This document shows positions 6,338 to 61,900 of a stretch of DNA of 64,000 nt, piece by piece. Origin of the DNA: an uncultured Chlorobiota bacterium (GTDB lineage Bacteria; Bacteroidota; Ignavibacteria; UBA10030; UBA6906); assembly GCA_900696645.1 (NCBI GenBank), contig CAADGV010000010.1, positions 1-64,000 on the forward strand, in the 5' to 3' direction. The notes beneath the pieces were generated by a model. That model did no database searches. It saw only the letters and a list, made by a program, of their open reading frames with translations, and was not told the origin of the DNA. The stretch's first letter is position 1. Each line of letters starts with the position of its first letter. The position numbers and the translations under genes are program-made.

Positions 6338-7612
6338 ATGCTCAAGACTTCTCACGCATCACACGCGTCTACCACTGCATCGGCGTACCGCAAAACGGTA
6401 TTGCCGAACGGCATCCGCGTTGTCACCGAAACAATTCCGTACGTCCGCTCTGTGTCGCTCGGTGTGTGGGCGAACGTCGGGTCGCGTGACGAGAACGAGA
6501 AGCAGAACGGCATCACGCATTTCCTCGAACACATGGTGTTCAAGGGAACGAAGAACCGGAGCGTGCGCAACATTGCGCAAAGTCTCGAGTCGTTAGGCGG
6601 CTACCTGAATGCTTTCACAACAAAAGAACAGACCTGCTTCTATGCCCGCGTGCTCGACCTTCATGTCGGCGAAGCGATGGATGTTCTTGCCGATCTTGTT
6701 CAGAATGCGACGTTTAAGAAAGAAGAACTTGAACGCGAGAAACTCGTTGTCATCGAAGAGTTGAAGAATGCCGAAGACGATCCCGAAGATATCATTCATG
6801 ATTACTTCGAGAAAGCGCTGTTTCCGCAGCATTCGCTCGGTTTCCCGATTATCGGAACAGAAGAGAATCTGCGCCGATTCAAGCGCGAGGATTTGTTTTC
6901 GCATGTAAAGAGGCACTATCATGCCTCCCGCATTGTCGTAGCAGCCGCCGGAAACATCAACCACGATCAGCTTGTCCGGCTGGTGGAAACGCATCTCAAA
7001 GGTCTGCCGACGAACGGCTACTCGTACAAGCGGATTCCCGGCCCGACTTCCGTCGAGCATAACACGCATGCGGAGTATCCGCGTCCCATCAAACAAGCGC
7101 ATGTCTGCCTCGGAACAGTCGCGTACAGCATTAGGCATCGTGACCGTTACCCCCTGATGGTCATGAACGCGTTGCTGGGAGAAGGGATGAGTTCGCGCCT
7201 CTATCAAAACATCCGCGAGAAGTACGGATTTGCGTACAGTGTGTATTCGTACACGAATTTGTTGAGCGATACAGGTTTGTTCGGAGCCTACATTGCAACG
7301 GATCAGAAGAATATCAACAACTCCATCGAACTGATTCAGAAAGAACTTGACCGGCTGAAGACGAAGCCCGTGCCGAGGGCGGAGCTTGAACGGACAAAAT
7401 CGCAAATCAAGGGCGTATTGATGTTGGGGTTGGAAAATATGTCGGGAAGAATGATGCGTCTCGGCAGCAGCGAGCTGTATTTCGAATCATTCACCTCTCT
7501 TGATTCGATTCTTAGGAAAGTGGACGCCGTAACCCCCGAAGCAATTCAGCGCGTTGCCGCCGATTTGTTCAAGGAAGAGAAATTCTCCACCGTTATCATT
7601 CGCCCCTCGTAA
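6338..7612 (+). CDS. M16-family zinc metallopeptidase (processing-peptidase type)
   Basis: A 424-residue single-unit M16 peptidase. The inverted zinc motif H-F-L-E-H is at residues 61-65, and the distal glutamate ligand is in 'VVIEELKNAEDDP' (E140/E141). This spacing is normal for the family. The C-terminal half carries the usual R/Y substrate motif region (SSRLYQNIREKYGFAYSVYSY). No signal peptide is seen, so the enzyme is probably cytoplasmic, as in the Bacillus MlpA/PqqL-like bacterial processing peptidases related to mitochondrial MPP-beta. It precedes the aminotransferase gene by 11 bases, which implies co-transcription. Family assignment is secure; the physiological substrate is not known. 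Confidence 0.92.
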   Translation: MLKTSHASHASTTASAYRKTVLPNGIRVVTETIPYVRSVSLGVWANVGSRDENEKQNGITHFLEHMVFKGTKNRSVRNIAQSLESLGGYLNAFTTKEQTCFYARVLDLHVGEAMDVLADLVQNATFKKEELEREKLVVIEELKNAEDDPEDIIHDYFEKALFPQHSLGFPIIGTEENLRRFKREDLFSHVKRHYHASRIVVAAAGNINHDQLVRLVETHLKGLPTNGYSYKRIPGPTSVEHNTHAEYPRPIKQAHVCLGTVAYSIRHRDRYPLMVMNALLGEGMSSRLYQNIREKYGFAYSVYSYTNLLSDTGLFGAYIATDQKNINNSIELIQKELDRLKTKPVPRAELERTKSQIKGVLMLGLENMSGRMMRLGSSELYFESFTSLDSILRKVDAVTPEAIQRVAADLFKEEKFSTVIIRPS

Positions 7613-7623
7613 TTCCCGCCGGT

Positions 7624-9060
7624 ATGATCACACTCGACAATCTGAATCCCAATCTTCTCAAAGCCGAATATGCGGTACGCGGGCCGATTGTTATTCGTGC
7701 TCAGCAGTTGGAAGAGCAGGGAAGGAAGATCATCTACTGCAACATCGGCAACCCGCAAGCATTAAAGCAAAAGCCGCTTTCATATATCAGGCAAGTGTTG
7801 AGTCTGCTCGAATACCCCGAATTGTTGAACAAGCCCGACGTTCTCAAACACTACCCGAAGGATCTTGTCGAGCGGGCGAAGATGATTTTGCAGAAACATC
7901 CGCACGGAACCGGCGCCTACTCGCAAAGTGCGGGAATTCCGTTCATCAGAAAGGCGGTTGCTGAGTTCATTGCGCGGCGCGACGGAATTCCGGCCGATCG
8001 TGATCATGTGATTCTCACGGATGGCGCAAGCAAAGGGGTTCAGGCGGCAATTCTCGCATTGCTGAAGACCCGGAACGACGGATTCATGATTCCGATTCCG
8101 CAGTATCCGTTGTACAGCGCGACGATTGCCCTGTACGGCGGAACACAAATCGGCTACTTCCTCGATGAATCTGCTAACTGGCAACTGAACGAAGCCGCGT
8201 TGGAAGAAAGCATCAGCAAAGCGGAAAGCAAAGGCGTTCATCCTGTTGCCATTGCCGTCATCAATCCGAGCAACCCGACGGGCAGCGTGCTGTCGTTTGA
8301 GAATATTCAGATGGTGATTCGTTTTGCGCAGCGCCATCATCTGTCGATCATGGCCGACGAAGTGTATCAGGAAAATGTGTACGCTCCGGGCTGCAAGTTT
8401 TATTCGTTCGCCAAAGCGATGCACGATATGAACGACACGGAAACAACGCTGTTCAGTTTCCATTCTGTTTCGAAAGGATTTTTGGGAGAATGCGGACATC
8501 GTGGCGGATATGTGGAATTTCGCAACATCCCGAACGATGTGCTTTCGGAGATGGTGAAACAACAAAGCATAAGTCTCTGCGCAAACGTCAGCGGACAAAT
8601 CAACACGTACTTGATGGTTGCTCCGCCGCAGCCCGGCGACGAGAGTTACGAAACGTACATCAACGAGAAGAACGCCGTTCTCTCATCCCTCAAAAAGAAA
8701 TCGGAAATCCTCTTCGAACGCATCAATCAAATCGAGGGCATGTCGATGGACGTGCCGCAAGGGGCAATGTATGCGTTTGTGAGGTTCGAACTTCCGCCGG
8801 AACCCGGCGTTAATGTCAACGCTATGAGTAGCGAAGAACGACGGCTGTACGAACAGAGTCGGGACGAAGCATACTGTATGAAATTGCTGGAGGAGACGGG
8901 GATTTGCGTTGTGCCCGGATCGGGATTCGGCCAGGAAGCGGGAACGTTCCATTTCAGGACGACTTTCCTCCCGCCCCAGGATGAGATTGAAGAGTTGGTG
9001 GAGAAGTTGAAGGCGTTTCATGAGAAGTACACGCGCTCGATGCTCGTGCCACTTACGTAG
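7624..9060 (+). CDS. PLP-dependent alanine-aminotransferase-type enzyme
   Basis: A 478-residue class I/II aminotransferase of the eukaryotic-like alanine aminotransferase group. Seen features are the N-terminal 'VRGPIVIRAQQL ... IIYCNIGNPQ' segment, the 'INPSNPTG' turn, the cofactor Asp in 'IMADEVYQENVY', and the PLP-binding lysine K284 in 'FHSVSKGFLGECGHRGG'. 'FHFRTTFLPP' near the end carries the carboxylate-binding arginine. This sequence pattern is that of the ALT/GPT family, which interconverts alanine and 2-oxoglutarate with pyruvate and glutamate. The start at 7624 follows the M16 stop by 11 bases, and the gene probably shares its transcript. Specificity for alanine is inferred from the family only. 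Confidence 0.88.
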   Translation: MITLDNLNPNLLKAEYAVRGPIVIRAQQLEEQGRKIIYCNIGNPQALKQKPLSYIRQVLSLLEYPELLNKPDVLKHYPKDLVERAKMILQKHPHGTGAYSQSAGIPFIRKAVAEFIARRDGIPADRDHVILTDGASKGVQAAILALLKTRNDGFMIPIPQYPLYSATIALYGGTQIGYFLDESANWQLNEAALEESISKAESKGVHPVAIAVINPSNPTGSVLSFENIQMVIRFAQRHHLSIMADEVYQENVYAPGCKFYSFAKAMHDMNDTETTLFSFHSVSKGFLGECGHRGGYVEFRNIPNDVLSEMVKQQSISLCANVSGQINTYLMVAPPQPGDESYETYINEKNAVLSSLKKKSEILFERINQIEGMSMDVPQGAMYAFVRFELPPEPGVNVNAMSSEERRLYEQSRDEAYCMKLLEETGICVVPGSGFGQEAGTFHFRTTFLPPQDEIEELVEKLKAFHEKYTRSMLVPLT

Positions 9061-9068
9061 GGGCCGAA

Positions 9069-9584
9069 ATGCAAGTGTATAGTGTCGAAGCTATTATTCA
9101 AGCGCTCAGCAACGCGGATGTCCAGTATCTGGTTGTGGGAGGGCTCGCAGTCAATGCACATGGCTACAAACGCCTGACTGACTATGTTGATTTGGTGATC
9201 GGGCTTGAACCAAGCAACATTGTCAACGGGTTAAGGGCGCTCTCCTCCATCGGGTATCAGATGTCCATTCCGGTGACTCCGGAAGATTTCGCGGATGCTG
9301 AAAAACGGGAGGGATGGCGAAGGAACAAGAACATGATCGTGCTGAAACTTTGGAGCGACGCTCATCGCCGGACTCCGATAGATGTTTTTGTGTATGAGCC
9401 ATTTGACTTTCAAGCCGCCTACAAAGCGGCAAGGTGGCTTCCGATGGGTGGGAGATTGCATGCCCCGATTGTAAGTCTGGAGACCCTGCTCGCAATGAAG
9501 GAATCCGCGGGTCGTCCGCAGGACCTTGCCGATATCAGTGAACTTAAGCGCGTTCAAGAGTTGCGTGGAAAGAAAGACCAATGA
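9069..9584 (+). CDS. MNT/AbiEii-type nucleotidyltransferase-fold protein, altered DxD motif
   Basis: A 171-residue protein of the DNA-polymerase-beta-like nucleotidyltransferase superfamily, seen from 'YLVVGGLAVNAHGYKRLT' at the N-terminus and a later 'PIDVFVYEPFDF' strand that would carry the third acidic residue. Relatives normally have R-x-T-x-D-[VIL]-D. Here the sequence is R-L-T-D-Y-V-D, so the first metal-binding Asp position is Tyr, with an Asp one residue earlier. Catalysis may therefore be lost or rearranged. The stop overlaps the start of the next small gene by 4 bases (ATGA), a sign of translational coupling. The arrangement resembles minimal nucleotidyltransferase pairs, some of which are toxin-antitoxin modules, but a toxin role is inference only. 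Confidence 0.7.
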   Translation: MQVYSVEAIIQALSNADVQYLVVGGLAVNAHGYKRLTDYVDLVIGLEPSNIVNGLRALSSIGYQMSIPVTPEDFADAEKREGWRRNKNMIVLKLWSDAHRRTPIDVFVYEPFDFQAAYKAARWLPMGGRLHAPIVSLETLLAMKESAGRPQDLADISELKRVQELRGKKDQ

Positions 9585-9793
9585 CGCAGGAAGAATTCGA
9601 CAATCATCCGGGATGGGAGTTCTGCACGCCGCAAGGAGCACGTGACCAGGTATTGTTGCTGGACATTGAAACAACCTTTCGGGAGAAACTTGAATGGCTT
9701 GAAGAAGCTGAGAACTTCAGTATGCTATTTCGTTTTCAGGATGATGCAGCACTATCACAGGCTGAGACCAAAACAGTGGTGACACAAGGATAG
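9581..9793 (+). CDS. Small helical partner of the nucleotidyltransferase-like protein
   Basis: A 70-residue acidic protein starting at an ATG that overlaps the preceding stop by 4 bases. The central segment 'TFREKLEWLEEAENFSMLF' is predicted to be an amphipathic helix. Short genes with a similar '(K/R)LEWLEEA' helix downstream of such nucleotidyltransferase genes are familiar from other bacterial genomes, to the best of my recollection. No known catalytic motif is present. The 4-base overlap supports it being a real gene that works with its neighbour. It could be a substrate, a regulator or an antitoxin-like partner; none of these is shown by the sequence. Confidence 0.6.
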   Translation: MTQEEFDNHPGWEFCTPQGARDQVLLLDIETTFREKLEWLEEAENFSMLFRFQDDAALSQAETKTVVTQG

Positions 9794-9808
9794 TTTCAGG
9801 AAAACAGA

Positions 9809-11488
9809 ATGTCGAAAATTACCATTGACGGAAAAGTATTAGAAGTAGACCCCAAGCGAACCATCATCGAAGCCGCTCGCGAAAACGGCATCGAGATTCC
9901 GCATTTCTGCTGGCATCCGAAGCTGTCGGTGTCGGGCAATTGCCGCATGTGCTTGGTGGAAGTAGAGAAAATGCCGAAGCTCGCGATTGCATGCGCAACG
10001 CAAGTCATGGACGGCATGGTCGTTCACACAGCAAATCCGAAAGTCGTGAACGCACGTGAAGCGGTGATGGAATTTCTTCTCATCAACCATCCGCTGGATT
10101 GCCCGATTTGCGACGAAGCGGGCGAATGCAAGCTGCAGGATTACGCGTACAAATACAGCGAAGGGGCCAGCCGCTTTGATGAAAGCAAAGTTCACAAGCC
10201 GAAGCGGGTCGAGCTCGGCCCGCACGTCATGCTCGATACCGAGCGTTGCATCATGTGTTCGCGTTGCATTCGTTTTTGCGAGGAGATTGCAAAGAAGCCG
10301 CAACTGACCTTCACCCAGCGCGGCACGCACGTTGAGTTGACGACGTTCCCCGGCGAACAGCTCGACAATCCCTACTCAATGAACACGATCGACATCTGCC
10401 CGGTTGGCGCGTTGACGTCACGCGATTTCCGCTTCAAAGCGCGTGTATGGGAAATGTCGGCAACCGAAACAATCTGCCCCGGATGCTCACGCGGCTGCAA
10501 CATGTACTCGTGGGTTCGCAACAACGAGATTCTGCGTCAAACCCCCAGATACAATCCTGAAGTGAATGACTATTGGATGTGCGACAAGGGGAGATTGGAG
10601 TCCTTCCAACATGTGAACGTTGCCAATCGCATCAAACATCCGATGATGAAGAAAGACGGAGGGTTGGTTGAAGTCGGTTGGGATGAAGCCATCGCCAAAG
10701 CAGCATCGGAACTGAAAACATTCAAGAAATCCGAGATCGCCGTCATCGGCTCTGCGTATGACACGAACGAAGACAACTATCTCCTTCAAAAATTTGCATC
10801 CGAAGTTCTCGGCACGAAGCACATTGCTTTTGTCCGTCATGTTGTTGAGGGAGATGAAGACGCTATTCTTGTCAAGGCGGACAAAACACCGAACTCTCTC
10901 GGCGCCGAACGCGTTGGCGTTCGCTCACGGGAAGGCGGATTGGACTACGCCGGAATTCTCAAAGCGATCAAGGAAGGAAGTATCAAGGCGGTATTCGTTG
11001 TTGATGACAATATTGCGGTTGATTCAGCCGTTGCGGATGCATTGAGCCGGCTTGAATTCCTTGTTGTGAATTTCTCGTTCGAGAATGAGACGACGCGTCT
11101 TGCAGATATTCTCTTCCCCACATCCACCTTTGCGGAAAAGAACGGCACGTTCACAAACTTTGAGGGACGAGTGCAACGGATTCGCCCGTCCGTCTCAACC
11201 CTGGATCAGGACAGGTCGCTCGACGGCTTTGCCATGAGCCGACTTGACAAGTTCGGCTCGCAGTTCGACCGTTGGGCAAAAGGCGCGAAGCGCGATGCCC
11301 GCCCGACGTGGAAGATTATTGCCGGCATTGCATCGCTGATGGGGGCGAAGTACAAGTACAACACCGCGGAAGATGTGTTCAACGAGATCGTCGCGCACGT
11401 TGATGGTTTCAAAGGGATGAGTTACAGAAAGATTGGAACCATGGGGATGATGCTGAGGCAGAAGGAAACAGTTGCAGTTAAAGCATAA
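9809..11488 (+). CDS. nuoG: NADH-quinone oxidoreductase subunit G (short form)
   Basis: A 559-residue iron-sulfur subunit of respiratory complex I in the peripheral arm. The N-terminal 2Fe-2S ferredoxin domain has C34, C45, C48 and C62 (cluster N1b). The His-Cys cluster N5 is H94, C98, C101 and C107. A 4Fe-4S site uses C147, C150 and C153 plus the Cys in 'DICPVGAL' (N4). A further C-x2-C-x3-C ... C set in 'ICPGCSRGC' and 'WMCDKGR' matches cluster N7. The molybdopterin-oxidoreductase-like domain then ends early: the protein is far shorter than the ~780-910 residues of Thermus or E. coli NuoG. The shortening is at the C-terminus, where no catalytic role is known. A 9-base gap leads to nuoH. Confidence 0.93.
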   Translation: MSKITIDGKVLEVDPKRTIIEAARENGIEIPHFCWHPKLSVSGNCRMCLVEVEKMPKLAIACATQVMDGMVVHTANPKVVNAREAVMEFLLINHPLDCPICDEAGECKLQDYAYKYSEGASRFDESKVHKPKRVELGPHVMLDTERCIMCSRCIRFCEEIAKKPQLTFTQRGTHVELTTFPGEQLDNPYSMNTIDICPVGALTSRDFRFKARVWEMSATETICPGCSRGCNMYSWVRNNEILRQTPRYNPEVNDYWMCDKGRLESFQHVNVANRIKHPMMKKDGGLVEVGWDEAIAKAASELKTFKKSEIAVIGSAYDTNEDNYLLQKFASEVLGTKHIAFVRHVVEGDEDAILVKADKTPNSLGAERVGVRSREGGLDYAGILKAIKEGSIKAVFVVDDNIAVDSAVADALSRLEFLVVNFSFENETTRLADILFPTSTFAEKNGTFTNFEGRVQRIRPSVSTLDQDRSLDGFAMSRLDKFGSQFDRWAKGAKRDARPTWKIIAGIASLMGAKYKYNTAEDVFNEIVAHVDGFKGMSYRKIGTMGMMLRQKETVAVKA

Positions 11489-11497
11489 GAGCCGAAC

Positions 11498-12529
11498 ATG
11501 GAATTCGTCATCATTTCAGTTATCAAGATTGTGGTCGTGTTGTTCATCGGCGTACTGCCGCTGGTTGCGAATCTCGTGTACGCCGAGAGGAAAATCAGTG
11601 CAGCCATTCAGAACCGAATCGGCCCGAACCGGGTCGGCCCGTGGGGGTTGTTCCAATCCCCGGCGGATGTTTTGAAACTTTTTATCAAGGAAGATATCGT
11701 TCCCGCGACGGCACACAAGTTCGTGCATACGCTGGCTCCCGTTATCTCCATTTCTGTTGCCCTTGTGACAATAGCTGTTGTACCGTTCGGCGACACGATC
11801 GAGTTGTTCGGTTACCGGATCAAGTTGATGATTGCCGATGTCAATATCGGTATTCTCTACATTCTCGCTCTCACATCGCTCGGCGTGTACGGATTGACGC
11901 TGAGCGGCTGGTCATCGAACAACAAGTACTCGCTGCTCGGCGGACTTCGTTCGTCCGCCCAACTCATCAGTTACGAATTATCGCTCGGCCTTTCCATTAT
12001 CGGCGTGATTATGATTGCCGGAACTCTCGAACTTGACCGGATTGTTGAGTTACAAGAAGGTTGGAGGTGGAATATCTTTCTGACGCCAATCGGGTTCATC
12101 ACATTTCTCGTCGCATCATTCGCGGAAACGAACCGTCTGCCGTTCGATTTGCCCGAGGCGGAACCGGAGCTTGTCGGCGGATATCATACGGAATACAGCG
12201 GCATGAAATTCGGCGCATTCTTCCTTGCCGAGTACGCCAACATGATCACGTCGAGCGCGTTGATCGTGACGCTGTTTCTCGGCGGCTGGCAATTGCCCGG
12301 CGTTCACTCGCTCGGATTTTCGCCGCTGTGGGTGAGCATTCTGCAAATCCTCACGTTCATGGTGAAGGTTGCATTCATGCTCTTCTTCTACATGTGGATC
12401 CGGTGGACGATTCCCCGTTTTCGCTACGACCAGTTGATGAATTTGGGGTGGAAGGTGATGTTACCGCTGGCGTTGCTGAATTTGTTCCTCACCGGCGCGC
12501 TGCATTTTATTGCGCCGGGAATTTGGTGA
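11498..12529 (+). CDS. nuoH: NADH-quinone oxidoreductase subunit H
   Basis: A 343-residue multi-pass membrane subunit of complex I at the quinone-binding junction. Characteristic family segments are 'AERKISAAIQNRIGPNRVGP', 'LLGGLRSSAQLISYE', 'ETNRLPFDLPEAEPELV' and 'GYHTEYSGMKFG'. These include the conserved acidic loop lining the quinone channel. About eight transmembrane helices are visible. The length matches the family. It follows nuoG by 9 bases. The gene is followed by a ~95-bp repeat-like sequence rather than directly by nuoI. Confidence 0.96.
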   Translation: MEFVIISVIKIVVVLFIGVLPLVANLVYAERKISAAIQNRIGPNRVGPWGLFQSPADVLKLFIKEDIVPATAHKFVHTLAPVISISVALVTIAVVPFGDTIELFGYRIKLMIADVNIGILYILALTSLGVYGLTLSGWSSNNKYSLLGGLRSSAQLISYELSLGLSIIGVIMIAGTLELDRIVELQEGWRWNIFLTPIGFITFLVASFAETNRLPFDLPEAEPELVGGYHTEYSGMKFGAFFLAEYANMITSSALIVTLFLGGWQLPGVHSLGFSPLWVSILQILTFMVKVAFMLFFYMWIRWTIPRFRYDQLMNLGWKVMLPLALLNLFLTGALHFIAPGIW

Positions 12530-54091: not shown

Positions 54092-55858
54092 TTGTCCTCG
54101 TTCAAGAAGCGCACGCACACATGCGGTGAGTTGCGCGTATCTGACATTGGCAAAACAGTGACACTGACAGGCTGGGTTGACATCAGGCGAGACCTTGGCG
54201 GAGTGATTTTCATTGACTTGCGTGATCGGTATGGAAAAACTCAAGTCGTCTTCAATCCTCAAACCAACGCAGCAGTACACGAGCTTGCCGGGTCGCTGCG
54301 GAATGAGTTTGTGATTTCGGTGTCAGGTCAAGTTGAACACCGCCCTGATGGCACGAACAATCCGGAGCTTGCGACGGGAGAGATCGACGTGATGGCGACG
54401 GAATTGCAGATTCTCAACAAAGCAGAAACACCTCCGTTCCACATCGAGGATTCAATCGAGACCAACGAAGACTTGCGGTTGAAATTCCGCTACCTTGATT
54501 TGCGACGACCGGTGTTGCAGAACAACATCATCGTCCGCCACAAACTCTACCAGATAGTTCACCGCTATTTTGATGAGAATGATTTTGTGGAAATCGAAAC
54601 GCCGGTGTTGATGAAGAGTACGCCGGAAGGCGCAAGAGATTACCTTGTGCCGAGCCGCGTTCAGCACGGGAAGTTCTATGCGCTTCCGCAGTCTCCTCAA
54701 ACATACAAGCAGATTCTCATGGTGGCAGGATTCGACCGGTATGTCCAAATCACGAAATGTTTTCGTGATGAAGACTTGCGGGCTGATCGCCAACCGGAAT
54801 TTACCCAGATTGATGCTGAGATGTCGTTCGTCGATGAAGAGGATGTTCAGCGTATTGCCGAGGGAATGATAGCGAGGATTTTCAAGGACTTGAAAGGGAT
54901 CGAAATTCAACTTCCGCTTCCTCGTCTCACATATAAACAGGCGATGGAAATGTACGGCAGTGACAAGCCGGACACGCGGTTTGAAATGAAGATTACGACA
55001 CTGAACGGGCTGGTTGAGGGTTCGGGGTTCAAGGTGTTTGCGGATAATGTTGCAAAGGGAGGAACGGTTGCCGGAATTGCCGTACCCGGTGCGGCATCGT
55101 TCACTCGCAATCAAATGGATAACCTTGTCGACTACGCAAAGAGCCTCGGTGTCGGCGGACTTGCATACATGAAGTGGACGGAGAAAGGACTTGAATCGGC
55201 AATCGAGAAATTCTTGGGCAAAGAGTTGATGGAGAAGATTGCCGCCGTGATGGGCGCAAAGCAGGGCGATTTACTTCTATTTGTTTCGGACTCGTGGTTG
55301 AAAACCTACTCGACGCTCGGTGCGCTCCGACTTGAAATGGCAAAGCGTCTGAAACTCATAGACGAAGGGAAGTGGAATTTGTTGTGGATTACCGAGTTTC
55401 CGATGTTCGAATTTAGCGAAGAAGAACAGCGCTACGTTGCCATGCATCATCCGTTCACATCGCCGATTCTCGAAGACATACATCTGCTTGATACCGCTCC
55501 GGAGAAGGCACGATCGAGAGCCTACGATATGGTGTTGAACGGAAATGAGTTGGGCGGAGGAAGCATCCGTATTCATGATTCCGCGCTTCAGTCAAAAGTC
55601 TTTTCGTTGTTAGGAATCGACAAAGAAGATGCTGAGAAGCGATTCGGATTTCTGCTCAACGCGTTCAAATACGGCGCGCCGCCGCATGGCGGCATTGCCT
55701 TCGGCCTGGACCGCATCGTGATGCTGTTGACGGGGAGCAAGTCACTGCGCGATGTTATTGCCTTTCCGAAAACCGCAAGTGCAATGTCGCTGATGGATGA
55801 AGCGCCGAGCGAGGTTGATGAAAAACAGCTTCGTGAACTGCACATTCGCGTTGTGTAG
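54092..55858 (+). CDS. aspS: Aspartyl-tRNA synthetase (bacterial type)
   Basis: A 588-residue class IIb synthetase. The N-terminal OB anticodon-binding domain is 'VTLTGWVDIRRDLGGVIFID'. The catalytic core has motif 2 ('ITKCFRDEDLRADRQPEFTQ'), the GAD-type insertion (residues ~290-420) and motif 3 ('GGIAFGLDRIVMLLTGSKSL'). It charges tRNA-Asp, or tRNA-Asn as well if AsnRS is absent. The start is TTG at 54092 with TTGGAG upstream; the first ATG is far inside the conserved domain. Confidence 0.95.
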   Translation: MSSFKKRTHTCGELRVSDIGKTVTLTGWVDIRRDLGGVIFIDLRDRYGKTQVVFNPQTNAAVHELAGSLRNEFVISVSGQVEHRPDGTNNPELATGEIDVMATELQILNKAETPPFHIEDSIETNEDLRLKFRYLDLRRPVLQNNIIVRHKLYQIVHRYFDENDFVEIETPVLMKSTPEGARDYLVPSRVQHGKFYALPQSPQTYKQILMVAGFDRYVQITKCFRDEDLRADRQPEFTQIDAEMSFVDEEDVQRIAEGMIARIFKDLKGIEIQLPLPRLTYKQAMEMYGSDKPDTRFEMKITTLNGLVEGSGFKVFADNVAKGGTVAGIAVPGAASFTRNQMDNLVDYAKSLGVGGLAYMKWTEKGLESAIEKFLGKELMEKIAAVMGAKQGDLLLFVSDSWLKTYSTLGALRLEMAKRLKLIDEGKWNLLWITEFPMFEFSEEEQRYVAMHHPFTSPILEDIHLLDTAPEKARSRAYDMVLNGNELGGGSIRIHDSALQSKVFSLLGIDKEDAEKRFGFLLNAFKYGAPPHGGIAFGLDRIVMLLTGSKSLRDVIAFPKTASAMSLMDEAPSEVDEKQLRELHIRVV

Positions 55859-55957
55859 ACAGCAGAATTGAGAATTGCCGGCTGCCGCTTTGGCGAGGGC
55901 GATGCAATGCAGCAACAAAACAAATCAACCATTCTCTCACTGTTCTAAGGAGGCTTC

Positions 55958-57004
55958 ATGGTTGGCATAGTTGGATACGGGGCATATCTTCCACGATATC
56001 GCATCAAAGCAGAGACAATAGCAAGACAATGGGGTACAGATCCCGAGGCAATCACACGTGGTCTGCAATTGTATGAAAAGACAGTGCCCGGACAGGATGA
56101 AGACACGATTACTATTTCAGTATCTGCCGCGAGATATGCGCTTCGGCGGGCACAAATCGACCCCCAAGAGATTGGAGCCGTCTACATTGGCTCAGAGTCT
56201 CATCCGTACGCGGTTAAGCCAAGCGGGACAATCTTGATCGATGCGCTGGGGATTGGCCCGAACGTGCACGTCGCAAGCTACGAGTTTGCATGTAAAGCAG
56301 GCAGCGAGGCGATGTACGTGGCGTACAGTCACGTCAAGGCGGGCGAAATGAAATACGCGTTGGGGATCGGGGCTGATACATCACAAGGCGCGCCCGGTGA
56401 TGCACTCGAGTACTCGGCGTCTGCGGGTGGGGCAGCGTTTATCATGGGAAGCGAGCGTGTCGTGGCGGAAATTCTCTTCACACACTCCTACACGTCTGAC
56501 ACCCCCGACTTCTGGAGACGCGAAGGCGAATCCTATCCGCGTCACGGTGGCCGGTTTACCGGCGATCCTGCATACTTCAAGCACATCATGGGAGCCGCGA
56601 CCGCGTTGCTAGAGAAATCCAAAATGTCGCCGGAGGATTTCAAGTACGCAGTCTTTCACATGCCCAACGGAAAATTTCCCAACGAGGTTGGGAAGCGACT
56701 GGGATTCAAAAAGGAACAACTGGAGGCCGGTTGGATTGTTCCGTGGATGGGGAACACCTATTCAGGCTCTTCTCCCACCGGTCTGGCGGCAATTCTTGAT
56801 GTTGCCAAACCCGGCGATTTGATTTTCATGGTTTCGTTCGGTTCAGGTGCCGGGAGCGATGGCTTCATTTATCGAGTGACAGACGAGATCACGAAAGTGC
56901 AAGACCGTGCCCCGAAGTTGCGTGAAATGTTGGACAATCAGAAAACCTATCTCAACTACGGCGAGTATGCGAAGTTCCGCCGGAAAATCAAACTCAACGA
57001 CTAA
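55958..57004 (+). CDS. Archaeal-type hydroxymethylglutaryl-CoA synthase
   Basis: A 348-residue thiolase-fold enzyme of the archaeal HMG-CoA synthase group (former UPF0219). Landmarks are '[20 protein letters not shown]', the catalytic Cys C112 in '[16 protein letters not shown]', the His in '[19 protein letters not shown]' and the C-terminal '[15 protein letters not shown]'. The reaction joins acetyl-CoA and acetoacetyl-CoA to HMG-CoA, the second step of the mevalonate route. A strong Shine-Dalgarno (AAGGAGG) precedes the ATG. The thiolase gene begins 11 bases after the stop. Use in a non-mevalonate, HMG-CoA-like branched-acyl reaction is possible. Confidence 0.88.
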
Positions 57005-57015
57005 AGGAGGCCACG

Positions 57016-58167
57016 ATGAGAGATGTAGTTGTAATCGGGGCTGGCATGACCCAGTTCGGCGAGCTCTGGAACAAGTCGATTAAGGATATCTTTGTAGAAG
57101 CTGCATTGAAGGCAATTGAAGATGCCGGCGTCGACCATATTGATTCGATGTATGTTGGTGCGATGTCTCCCGGACTCTTTGTCGGACAAGAACACCTCGG
57201 CGCAGTCATGGCGGATTACCTTGGCGTTACACCAATACCCGCGACACATGTTGAGTCGGCGTGCGCTTCGGGAGGTGCTTCGTTCCGTCAAGCGTTTCTG
57301 GAAGTTGCTTCCGGAGCGAGTGAAATCGTGTTGGCCGGTGGTGTAGAGAAGATGACAGATGGTGCGGATGTTACCGAGGCGCTTGCAACGGCCGCTGATC
57401 AGGAGTATGAGGTCTATCAGGGTATTACCTTTCCCGGTTTGTATGCGCTGATCGCCCGGGCGCATATGGAACGATACGGAACGACACGTGAGCAATTGGC
57501 AGCCGTAGCGGTCAAGAACCACCGCAACGGTGCGAAGAATCCCAACGCGCAATTTCGTTCTGAGGTCACTGCAGAGCAGGTGATGAAATCAACCATGGTA
57601 GCTGACCCGTTGCGTTTGCTCGACTGCTCGCCTGTAAGCGACGGTGGAGCGGCCGTAATCGTCGCTTCAATGGATGTTGCAAAGAAGTTGAAGAAGAACC
57701 CAATCCGTGTGATTGCCTCCGCGCAATCCTCCGATACCATCGCTTTGCACAGCCGCAAAGACATCACCACCCTGAACTCGGTCGTGAAAGCCGCCGAGAA
57801 AGCGTACAAGATTGCTGATAAGAAGCCTGCCGATATTCACCTTGTCGAAGTCCACGACTGTTTCACGATAGCTGAAATTGTTACGACTGAAGATCTGGGT
57901 TTCTTCGAAAAAGGCAAGGGAGGAGAGGCAGCCGAGAAAGGATGGACATCGATTGAGTGTAAGCGCATTCCGGTAAACACAAGCGGTGGGTTGAAGTCAA
58001 AAGGCCATCCGGTCGGTGCAACGGGTGTTGCTCAAATCATCGAGCTATATGAACAGTTGAACGGTACGGCAGGTTCACGGCAGGTGCAAGGAGCACGCGT
58101 CGGGATGGCCCAGAACATGGGAGGTACGGGTGCAAGTTGTGTCATTCATATCTTGGAGGCATCATGA
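57016..58167 (+). CDS. Archaeal-type acetyl-CoA acetyltransferase (thiolase)
   Basis: A 383-residue thiolase/SCP2-like enzyme. The acyl-accepting Cys is C83 in '[18 protein letters not shown]'. Later catalytic elements are '[19 protein letters not shown]' (His) and '[18 protein letters not shown]' (His). The second Cys of classical biosynthetic thiolases ('CxG' near the C-terminus) is replaced here by '[14 protein letters not shown]'. The sequence belongs to the archaeal group that condenses two acetyl-CoA. Its Shine-Dalgarno is AAGGAGG, and the stop overlaps the DUF35 start by 4 bases. The conserved neighbours strongly support a physical complex. Confidence 0.9.
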
Positions 58168-58553
58168 TCACTGCAAGATATCATCGCGAAATTCCTCAAC
58201 GATACCGGCTTGAAGCTGGCAAATGTCTGGCGTGCGGACACCTGAGTTTTCCGCCGCGCCTCGTCTGCCCGGAATGCAAAGCAAAGAAGTTCGAGACGGT
58301 AACCTTGAGTGACGAAGGGACTCTTGTTACGTTTACTGTCGTCCGTGTTGCGTCGGACAAGTTCTCAAAGGAAACACCGTTTCCCGTCGGTATCGTTGAA
58401 CTGAACGGCGGCGTTCGCGTCACGGCACAGATTGCAGATGCAAACATCGATGAACTGAAGATTGGCCAGAAGTTGCGGATCGTCTTCCGCAGAATACAGG
58501 ACGACGGCAAAGCAGGCATTTTGTGCTACGGATACAAAGCCATCATGGCATAG
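58164..58553 (+). CDS. DUF35 OB-fold/zinc-ribbon scaffold protein
   Basis: A 129-residue protein. The N-terminal zinc ribbon has C21, C24, C35 and C38 ('[20 protein letters not shown]'), and the OB-fold follows ('[17 protein letters not shown]', '[18 protein letters not shown]'). The archaeal homologue bridges thiolase and HMG-CoA synthase and holds a shared CoA-binding site that channels acetoacetyl-CoA. The ATG overlaps the thiolase stop (ATGA), so translation is coupled, fitting a fixed stoichiometry. An upstream in-phase start at 58137 lies inside the thiolase gene and is rejected. Confidence 0.9.
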
Positions 58554-58684
58554 GAAACGAAGTACACTTCAGCTATTAGCAGCCGGATCTCTGCTCGCCG
58601 GGAAGCTTGGGAACGATGCGTAGCAGAATCACGCTGGCACCGAAGGCGGGTTGGGACTCACTCTCTATCACAACAACGTACTGC

Positions 58685-60046
58685 ATGAAAGACAAAATCA
58701 GAATTGCATCCGGACAAGGATTTTGGGGTGACTTGCAGAATGCCCCGTACGATCAAGTTACCAAAGGTCCGATCGACTACATCATGATGGACTTCCTCGC
58801 TGAAGTTACCATGTCCATCCTGCAAAAGCAGAAAAAGCGCAATCCTGAGACCGGGTATGCGAGAGACCTTGTACACATGATTGAGCATATCTTGCCAATC
58901 TGTCTGGAAAAAGGTATACGGATAATCTCCAACGGCGGCGGCGTCAATCCGAAAGGATGCCGGGATGCAATCTTTAGTTGGGCGCACAAAAAGGGAATCA
59001 GGAATCTGAAGATCGGGACGGTGTTTGGCGACGACATACTTGGAAGTCTGGATGAGTTCAGCAAACGCGGGATTAAGCTGAACAACATGGATACCGGAGA
59101 GAGTCTTGATGCAGTGAGAAACAAAGTGATGAGTGCTAACGTGTACTTTGGTGCATGGCCCATCGTTGATGCCCTGAACCAAGGTGCCCAGATTGTCATC
59201 ACCGGTCGGACGACGGATACCGGCCTGACACTTGCGCCGATGGTTCATGAGTTTGGGTGGAAGGAAGATGACTGGGATAGGATTGCGGCAGGCACAGTTG
59301 CCGGCCACATTCTCGAGTGTGGCGGGCAAGCGAGTGGTGGAAATTTCTCCGCTGATTGGAGGAGTGTTCCCGATCTTGCCCGCATTGGTTTTCCCATCGC
59401 TGAAGCGTTTCCAAACGGTGAGGTGATCATTACAAAACACGAAAATACCGGAGGACTTGTCTCACGTCAAACAGTAACAGAACAGTTGATGTACGAGATT
59501 GGCAATCCGGCCAATTACATTACGCCGGATTGTGTCGCGGATTTCACGACCATTCATCTTGAAGATATTGGCCCCAATCGTGTTAGGATGTTTGGCGTAA
59601 GAGGCAAACCGGCAACGGATTCGTACAAAGTGTCGATGTCGTATCTTGATGGCTACACGGCTATCGGCACGCTGACATACGCATGGCCCGATGCATTGGA
59701 AAAGGCAAAAGCCGCGGATGAGATCCTTCGTAGGCGTCTTTCAGATCTCGGATTGAACTTCGATGAGATTCGGTCGGAGTTTATGGGCTACAATTCGTGC
59801 CACGGTCCGCTTTCGGTTATGCCGAATGAGACAAACGAGGTTGTGCTGCGGATCGGGGTTCGTGGTCACGACCATAAAGCGGTTGAGCGCTTTGGGATGG
59901 AACTCGCGCCGCTCATACTTACTGGTCCGCCAGCCGTGACAGGTTTTGCCGGCGGTCGCCCGAAACCGAGCGAGGTAGTTGCCTATTGGCCGGCGCTTAT
60001 TCCCAAGACCGCTGTACAACCGATCGTCGAAGTTGTTGAAGTGTAA
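58685..60046 (+). CDS. AtuA-type (DUF1446) protein, N-terminal part of a split AtuA
   Basis: A 453-residue protein of the acyclic-terpene-utilisation AtuA family (DUF1446): 'IRIASGQGFWGDLQNAPYDQ', 'YIMMDFLAEVTMSILQKQK', 'GIRIISNGGGVNPKGCRDAI', 'IVITGRTTDTGLTLAPMVHE' and 'LECGGQASGGNFSADW'. In Pseudomonas the family is tied to citronellol/geraniol breakdown, but its reaction is not established. The fused ~100-residue C-terminal domain of long AtuA proteins is missing here and encoded separately at 60274. ATG 58685 begins at the family N-terminus; starts at TTG 58607 or ATG 58616 would add ~25 unrelated residues. Confidence 0.82.
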   Translation: MKDKIRIASGQGFWGDLQNAPYDQVTKGPIDYIMMDFLAEVTMSILQKQKKRNPETGYARDLVHMIEHILPICLEKGIRIISNGGGVNPKGCRDAIFSWAHKKGIRNLKIGTVFGDDILGSLDEFSKRGIKLNNMDTGESLDAVRNKVMSANVYFGAWPIVDALNQGAQIVITGRTTDTGLTLAPMVHEFGWKEDDWDRIAAGTVAGHILECGGQASGGNFSADWRSVPDLARIGFPIAEAFPNGEVIITKHENTGGLVSRQTVTEQLMYEIGNPANYITPDCVADFTTIHLEDIGPNRVRMFGVRGKPATDSYKVSMSYLDGYTAIGTLTYAWPDALEKAKAADEILRRRLSDLGLNFDEIRSEFMGYNSCHGPLSVMPNETNEVVLRIGVRGHDHKAVERFGMELAPLILTGPPAVTGFAGGRPKPSEVVAYWPALIPKTAVQPIVEVVEV

Positions 60047-60114: not shown

Positions 60115-60270
60115 ATGGCACGAAAACGAACAACTCACAGAAGCGTGTCGGGAACGAAGCTGTATGCGGTGCGGGATTCGAAGGGGAGATTCGTTGATAT
60201 CCAAACGTACAAGCGGGCCCATGCTGCCGATCTACGCAAGACCAGCAAGAGTGAAAAGAAGAAGAAATAA
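60115..60270 (+). CDS. 51-residue basic protein between the two AtuA parts
   Basis: A small protein (M-A-R-K-R-T-T-H-R start) with a conserved-looking core 'YAVRDSKGRFVDIQTYKRA' and a lysine-rich tail ('SKSEKKKK'). It has a good Shine-Dalgarno (AAAGGA, 60100s) and sits 3 bases before the next gene. The core resembles short basic hypothetical proteins I recall from other bacteria of varied phyla, possibly nucleic-acid-binding. It is too short for standard gene finders to favour, but the spacing and codon pattern support it. Confidence 0.65.
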   Translation: MARKRTTHRSVSGTKLYAVRDSKGRFVDIQTYKRAHAADLRKTSKSEKKKK

Positions 60271-60273
60271 TTC

Positions 60274-60597
60274 ATGAAGATCAGATTGATCGATATCGCC
60301 CACGCCCGGTCCGGCGACAAAGGAGATACCGGAAATGTCGGCGTCATTGCACGTAAACAGGAGTACTATCCGTTGTTGGCAAAGTATCTCACTGTTGAAC
60401 GAGTGAAGAAACATTTCAACGGCATTGCGCTCGGGAAGGTTGAGAGATTTGAAATTCCCAATCTGTGGGCGATTAATTTTCTGCTGCATGAAGCACTCGG
60501 AGGCGGTGGCACGAAGTCCCTCAAGAACGATGCACAAGGTAAAACGCTGAGCAGCGCAATGCTGCGCATGGAATTGGATATTGACGAGAAACTGTAA
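60274..60597 (+). CDS. AtuA C-terminal ferredoxin-fold domain as a separate protein
   Basis: A 107-residue protein ('MKIRLIDIAHARSGDKGDTG', then 'NVGVIARKQEYYPLLAKYLT', 'RFEIPNLWAINFLLHEALGG') that matches the C-terminal domain of AtuA-family proteins, where 'ARSGDKGD' is a hallmark. It follows the 51-residue gene by 3 bases. The two AtuA parts are encoded in the same operon and order as the fused form, so they probably act together. Confidence 0.82.
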   Translation: MKIRLIDIAHARSGDKGDTGNVGVIARKQEYYPLLAKYLTVERVKKHFNGIALGKVERFEIPNLWAINFLLHEALGGGGTKSLKNDAQGKTLSSAMLRMELDIDEKL

Positions 60598-60786: not shown

Positions 60787-61900
60787 ATGATGTTTGAAGA
60801 ACAAAAAGAGCGTGTTCAGAAACTCAAGAAACAACTGACCGAGCTTCGAGGTTATCTTTGACGTAGATGCAAAAGAACAAGAAGCGGCCGGCTTGCAGTC
60901 AAAAACCGAAGCCCCGAATTTCTGGAATGATAATGTCGCTGCACAGAAGACGATGCAGCAACTCAGTTCGTTGAAGGAATGGGTTGATGGTTGGAAAACC
61001 CTGAAGCGGACGCTCGACGATGCCGGGTCGCTGCTCGAGCTCGCGGAAGAATCCAACGATTCATCACTGGGTTCCGAGATCGACAAGGAACTGGATAAAG
61101 TAGAGAAGGGGATAGGAGACCTGGAATTCCGCAACATGCTCAGCGGTGCCGACGACAAACGTAACTGCATTCTGAACATCAACTCCGGTGCAGGGGGCAC
61201 GGAGTCGCAGGATTGGGCGGAAATGCTGCTTCGCATGTATGTTCGATGGTCTGAACGACAAGGCTACAAAGTCGTGTTGACTGACCGGCTTGATGGTGAT
61301 GGAGCCGGAATCAAGAGCGCATCAATTGAGGTAATAGGCGAGTATGCCTATGGCTACTTGAAGGCGGAAAACGGCGTGCACCGGCTCGTCCGAATCTCCC
61401 CGTTTGATGCAAATGCCCGGCGGCATACATCGTTCGCCTCAGTGTTCGTGTATCCGGAAATGGATGATGATGTTGAGATTGAAATCAATCCGGCGGATAT
61501 CAAGGTCGATACGTTCCGCTCGGGCGGGAAAGGCGGACAAAACGTCAACAAAGTTGAAACCGCAGTCCGCATTACCCATATTCCGACAGGCATTGTGGTT
61601 GCATGCCAGCAGGAACGTTCGCAATTCCAGAATAAGGAGCGTGCACTGAATATGCTGAAATCCCAGTTGTATCAGAAGCGGAAGGAAGAAGAAGAAGCGC
61701 GCCTGAACGCTATCGAAAACACGAAGAAAAAAATCGAATGGGGGAGCCAGATTCGCTCATACGTTTTTCATCCCTACAATATGGTCAAGGATCACAGGAC
61801 AGACGTCGAAACAAGCGACGTACATGGCGTAATGGACGGCGATCTTGACGCCTTCATCAAAGGGTACCTGATGGAATTCAGTTCGAAGGGAACTGCATAG
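60787..61900 (+). CDS. prfB: Peptide chain release factor 2, with programmed +1 frameshift
   Basis: A 370-residue release factor read by joining 24 codons from 60787 (frame ends at TGA 60859-60861) to a second frame starting at GAC 60860. The second frame contains the stop-codon-recognition tripeptide S204-P205-F206, specific to RF2 (UGA and UAA), and the catalytic G249-G250-Q251 ('[13 protein letters not shown]'). These positions are within one residue of E. coli RF2. The Shine-Dalgarno AAGGAG lies just upstream of ATG 60787. RF2 autoregulates by this frameshift: little RF2 means slow termination at TGA and more shifting. Confidence 0.97.
60847..60862 (+). promoter_or_regulatory. Programmed +1 frameshift site of prfB
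   Basis: The core is CTT TGA C (60856-60862), preceded by GAGG (60848-60851), a Shine-Dalgarno-like stimulator. This is the pattern CGAGGTTATCTTTGAC, close to the classic AGGGGGTATCTTTGAC. The ribosome slips from CTT into the +1 frame to read GAC. Confidence 0.97.

Follow-up and report, generated by a model that had tools for sequence, protein, structure and literature searches.

The window, by which we mean the whole analysed stretch of 64,000 nucleotides, carries three adjoining genes encoding an HMG-CoA synthase (HMGS), an acetoacetyl-CoA thiolase and a DUF35 protein. To our knowledge, the complex of these three proteins has so far been described solely as the entry point to lipid synthesis in archaea, and the locus raises the question of what it would do in a bacterium. 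The trio consists of the following genes.

55958-57004, + strand: archaeal-type HMGS gene, 348 aa; TIGR00748, 6ESQ chain I
57016-58167, + strand: acetoacetyl-CoA thiolase of the HMGS complex, 383 aa; NF004720, 6ESQ chain A
58164-58553, + strand: DUF35 bridging protein, zinc ribbon plus OB fold, 129 aa; PF12172, PF01796, 6ESQ chain E

The compact arrangement given in the preliminary description was reproduced, with a gap of 11 bases between the synthase and thiolase genes, an overlap of 4 bases between the thiolase gene and the DUF35 gene (ATG start at 58164), and a GGAGG-type Shine-Dalgarno site ahead of each gene. The synthase scored 520.5 bits with the archaeal HMGS equivalog model TIGR00748 (cut-off 353.35), as opposed to 115 bits with the bacterial model TIGR01835 (cut-off 360). 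The thiolase exceeded the cut-off of NF004720 (551.8 vs 420 bits), although its top-scoring model, the narrow Methanothermococcus-type NF053570, stayed below threshold (564.4 vs 600 bits); the DUF35 protein matched both PF12172 and PF01796. In a PDB search the top chain for each protein was a subunit of 6ESQ/6ET9 (428 bits for the synthase, 399 for the thiolase and 102 for the DUF35 protein). Since the family models agree and the closest solved structure for each of the three proteins belongs to a single complex, the identity of the trio is not a matter of chance, and its earlier assignment to the archaeal module holds. The catalytic and zinc residues, those named at that time among them, are also in place: the HMGS catalytic triad E80, C112 and H234 is present and unchanged across 82 bacterial and 30 archaeal homologues, the thiolase has C83, H280, C282 and H331, with C83 kept in 75 of the 75 bacterial loci checked, and the DUF35 zinc ribbon has all of C21, C24, C35 and C38. 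Judged by sequence, the trio is an archaeal-type thiolase/DUF35/HMGS set, not a bacterial MvaS/PksG. A PhlABC-like acyltransferase or an enzyme resembling benzoylsuccinyl-CoA thiolase would have the same DUF35-thiolase architecture, but the synthase reaches 428 bits with 6ESQ vs 203 with PhlA, the BbsA and BbsB models give 52 and 205 bits (cut-offs 250 and 750), and the HMGS triad is intact. Both identities were rejected on these scores, and we regard a function of this kind as highly improbable.

A full four-cysteine zinc site is lacking in the DUF35 proteins of bacterial trios L037, L038, L040, L058-L060, L069, L071, L084, L085, L088 and L100. In 15 of the 30 thermoplasmatote trios, Cys83 of the thiolase is replaced by Asp, Thr, Glu or Gly (L195, L200, L201, L203, L204, L209, L211, L212, L216-L218 and L220-L223); such a thiolase is possibly inactive and kept as a scaffold.

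The gene unit extends past the trio and is larger than first described, with AtuA, a short ORF and an AtuA ferredoxin-like gene downstream.

54092-55858, + strand: aspS (NF001750, 867 bits), left flank of the cassette, with no part in its function
55883-58685, + strand: cassette without counterpart in congener G247 (colinear blastn matches on both sides, nothing between)
58685-60046, + strand: AtuA (PF07287, 513.8 bits)
60115-60270, + strand: lysine-rich 51-codon ORF between AtuA and the ferredoxin-like gene, conserved in the congener (L227)
60274-60597, + strand: AtuA ferredoxin-like domain as its own gene (PF23544, 105.9 bits)

Both domains of the AtuA family, PF07287 and PF23544, are thus present in the window on separate genes. 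The neighbourhood in the congener is colinear at 82-88% identity, and its aspS and AtuA directly adjoin; the extra block of the window, ~2.8 kb at about 55883-58685, contains exactly the trio. Because the same neighbourhood occurs without exactly that block, the trio can be described as an exchangeable cassette. The aspS-AtuA pair without the trio was also found in several other families of the same order. The position of the trio is aspS-trio-AtuA in the clade of the window and AtuA-AtuAfd-trio-prfB in G113, where AtuA has the trio on its opposite flank and the synthase belongs to a different branch. Extra genes among aspS, trio and AtuA were observed in relatives at L141 (G168, 8815-11700) and L140 (G251, 7436-8200), the latter insert being apparently a nucleotidyltransferase/HEPN-like pair, and the site seems to attract insertions. 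An apparent CTTTGAC +1 frameshift site of the usual type was observed in prfB at window positions 60858-60865; the listed ORF begins only at 60893.

An HMGS tree rooted with PhlA placed all 82 bacterial synthases, the closest-matching subset of a larger collection, in one clade with SH-aLRT 100, the archaeal side being represented by 30 thermoplasmatote sequences and Methanothermococcus. The thiolase tree likewise separates archaea and bacteria (support 99), and pairwise distances among the three trio proteins correlate over 73 loci (r 0.67, 0.60 and 0.67; 0 of 999 permutations as high). The outcome of the phylogenetic check proposed earlier favours that description: the three proteins have a common history, and none is a PksG or fatty-acid enzyme. 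With these trees and a G+C content of 0.531 for the cassette vs 0.508 for the window, a recent gift from archaea is not indicated and recent transfer was rejected. Fitch counts of independent neighbour gains, in which incomplete flanks had been scored as absence, were set aside.

The view of the trio as an archaeal feature out of place in a bacterium was not sustained, as it occurs widely among uncultured bacterial phyla and the sampled bacterial synthases form a clade separate from the archaea sampled. Of the 296 phylum genomes sampled, only 10, that of the window among them, have this synthase at an identity of at least 65%. In a scan of named genomes, the best 80 loci of a longer list comprised 79 further ones whose record titles name bacteria and one from a thermoplasmatote. 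Carriers include Ignavibacteria, Kapabacteria, WOR-3, Cloacimonadota, Zixibacteria, Gemmatimonadota, Aminicenantes, Planctomycetota and others, many of the sampled genomes being incomplete MAGs. The three genes adjoin one another at 74 of the 89 bacterial loci, and the remainder are mostly on short contigs. A literature search confined to papers accessible without subscription found this arrangement nowhere described.

If the trio is at home in bacteria, does it serve isoprenoid synthesis? The window genome (4.2 Mb, 100% complete) has DXP reductoisomerase (DXR) and gave no match for HMG-CoA reductase (PF00368), in line with the original expectation of a host without mevalonate synthesis, and it follows that the trio does not serve mevalonate. 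The absence of reductase rules out such a role in the window genome, barring a non-homologous enzyme. A truncated or cross-fed mevalonate pathway could be argued from the reductase of five bacterial carriers, one of which (L073) has reductase and trio some 1.7 kb apart on a single contig; with the enzyme absent in 54 of the 59 trio-bearing bacterial genomes, we give this explanation a very small chance.

Leucine/isovalerate catabolism as the setting of the trio is, in contrast, well supported by gene context. The β subunit of methylcrotonyl-CoA carboxylase (MCC-beta) was found near the trio in 26 bacterial loci (27 with the incomplete locus L102), usually together with enoyl-CoA hydratase and biotin carboxylase. 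Where at least 5 kb was available on both sides of the trio (37 loci), 19 loci have it at a distance of no more than about 10 kb. By chance, a single-copy gene would be a neighbour in roughly one of 150 genomes, and the proximity is therefore not accidental. For instance, L072 is a compact operon of HMGS-THL-DUF35-MCCbeta-hydratase-BC-BCCP with gaps of 9, 10, 55, 2, 11 and 1. Trio-linked carboxylases score 759 bits with MCC-beta (3u9r), as compared to 470 with geranyl-CoA carboxylase and 288 with propionyl-CoA carboxylase. The window genome encodes an MCC-beta-type carboxylase beside an acyl-CoA dehydrogenase gene (537, 370 and 303 bits with the respective solved carboxylases).

The usual last step of this pathway is often missing. 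Among 49 trio genomes examined, HMG-CoA lyase exceeded the family cut-off in eight and occurred as fragments in two. Of the 30 trio genomes with a close MCC-beta (at least 63%), 20 have neither AtuA nor a lyase, whole or fragmentary; these 20 include three records titled 'chromosome' (G301/L039, G309/L049 and G330/L080). PF01144, the CoA-transferase family of SCOT and AibA/AibB, was found in none of the ten carriers of the window's class, the window genome included, which removes both the usual CoA-transferase activation of acetoacetate and the AIB decarboxylase. Mutual exclusion of trio and lyase was not found within the class, where the window genome and two more of the ten carriers have a gene above the lyase cut-off, as do 4 of the 37 other genomes. 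About 30 genomes of the class have MCC and AtuA with neither trio nor lyase, implying that another outlet exists. The lyase-family gene of the window genome adjoins a family III CoA-transferase gene, and HMG-CoA is a possible but not a certain substrate of its product. A member of the lyase family at L136 (9879-11835) has an unusual GGCPFTKIAGGNTCTED loop and lies near genes for a family III CoA-transferase and 2-oxoacid:ferredoxin oxidoreductase; it may be a citramalyl-CoA-type lyase.

We propose, with a probability of roughly 57%, that an archaeal-type complex running in reverse ends leucine/isovalerate degradation by converting HMG-CoA and two CoA to three acetyl-CoA. Thiolase, DUF35 and HMGS would assemble as in archaea, but for catabolism. 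Leucine or isovalerate would be oxidized via isovaleryl-CoA to 3-methylcrotonyl-CoA, from which methylcrotonyl-CoA carboxylase and a subsequent hydration step would produce HMG-CoA. In place of HMG-CoA lyase, whose products are acetyl-CoA and free acetoacetate, reversed HMGS would yield acetyl-CoA and acetoacetyl-CoA from HMG-CoA and CoA, and the coupled thiolase would split the acetoacetyl-CoA; no thioester would be lost and re-activation of acetoacetate would be unnecessary. HMGS normally runs forward, the favourable direction, but thiolysis of acetoacetyl-CoA is strongly favourable, which makes a coupled reversal plausible: the exergonic step would pull the unfavourable one through the common CoA site. 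Gene adjacency says nothing on reaction direction; reversal is a step that we infer, together with complex formation, substrate and operation in the window genome. The broader proposal, of a CoA-conserving reverse complex that takes over from the lyase as well as from acetoacetate activation and is found widely across phyla of uncultured bacteria as an exchangeable cassette, has in our estimate an even chance.

The same enzymes could also run forward, from three acetyl-CoA to HMG-CoA. The hydratase and a decarboxylation step would then give isovaleryl-CoA, a precursor for iso-branched fatty acids, much as in the myxobacterial AIB route; alternatively, HMG-CoA would lead to a different 3-methylglutaryl product, as it does for caprazamycin. 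This is the known direction of HMGS, the neighbouring enzymes have the same intermediates either way, and an HMGS feeding 3-methylglutaconyl-CoA, Cpz5, is documented (PMC9636800). We nevertheless judge forward use unlikely, given that the AibA/AibB family is absent from all class carriers and that the neighbours form a catabolic set with an ATP-driven carboxylase and acyl-CoA dehydrogenases. The AIB route itself was rejected on the first of these two grounds.

AtuA is the other neighbour to be accounted for. Its AlphaFold model (pLDDT 87.5) has a sole full-length structural match, the ADP/pyruvate-bound citramalate lyase 9evf (9evf_A; Foldseek E 1.3e-25; Z 30.9 over 421 residues; next Z 9.4), a likeness seen in the fold search, a sequence search against PDB having given no match. 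The match suggests a chemistry for this long-uncertain family. Among 47 class genomes, AtuA accompanies the class-type MCC-beta (about 41-53% to the L072 protein) in 41 of 41 cases. Six genomes have no AtuA. Five of these also lack that MCC-beta, and the last, G156, encodes one of another kind (70% to L072) and is the only class carrier of the trio without AtuA. AtuA is thus likely to be another outlet for HMG-type compounds, also in the window genome, and for that reason we make no claim of an essential role for the trio there; with a lyase-family gene also present, it need not be the sole outlet, and redundancy is possible. Adjacency of AtuA and trio in the window and in several other HMGS lineages might instead mean that both act on a branched-chain or acyclic-terpenoid intermediate other than leucine, or that the trio handles the AtuA product. 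This reading, which we rate slightly below forward use, is opposed by the occurrence of AtuA in only 11 of 50 carriers outside the class and by the nearest carboxylases being MCC, not geranyl-CoA carboxylase.

The preliminary description had offered lateral transfer or a non-mevalonate task as alternatives. Its suggestion of a leucine or branched-acyl task is the best supported, but the either/or does not stand: the cassette is patchy at differing sites and another task would explain its retention, so both are compatible. If reverse operation is true, the entrance complex of archaeal lipid synthesis would be a catabolic exit in bacteria, one thioester would be saved in energy-limited anaerobic leucine/isovalerate oxidation, and the lack of HMG-CoA lyase in MAGs of Aminicenantes, Zixibacteria, WOR-3 and other groups would no longer leave a gap. 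It would also caution against annotating a mevalonate pathway from the trio genes. Reverse channelling, with exergonic thiolysis drawing an unfavourable Claisen reversal, is directly testable.

Several known systems bear comparison. Anaerobic isovalerate degradation in Desulfococcus multivorans has been proposed to proceed via HMG-CoA to acetoacetyl-CoA and acetyl-CoA; HMG-CoA lyase was detected there, and the available part of that report mentions no archaeal-type synthase complex (PMC5109826). The myxobacterial AIB route and caprazamycin Cpz5 similarly tie an HMGS to Liu intermediates but run forward, and the AibAB family (PF01144) is absent from the window genome. The Pseudomonas Liu pathway shares the MCC, hydratase and acyl-CoA dehydrogenase genes that surround the trio in relatives, whereas many trio carriers have the trio instead of HMG-CoA lyase (LiuE), and their MCC alpha is often split into two genes. 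The archaeal complex of Methanothermococcus thermolithotrophicus (6ESQ/6ET9) agrees with the trio in all its subunits, the order of their genes, the catalytic residues of HMGS and thiolase, and the zinc ribbon. The bacterial trio differs from it in a DXP-route host without HMG-CoA reductase, a separate clade in the sampled trees and linkage to MCC and/or AtuA. The complex as such is known; its metabolic setting here is the unexpected part.
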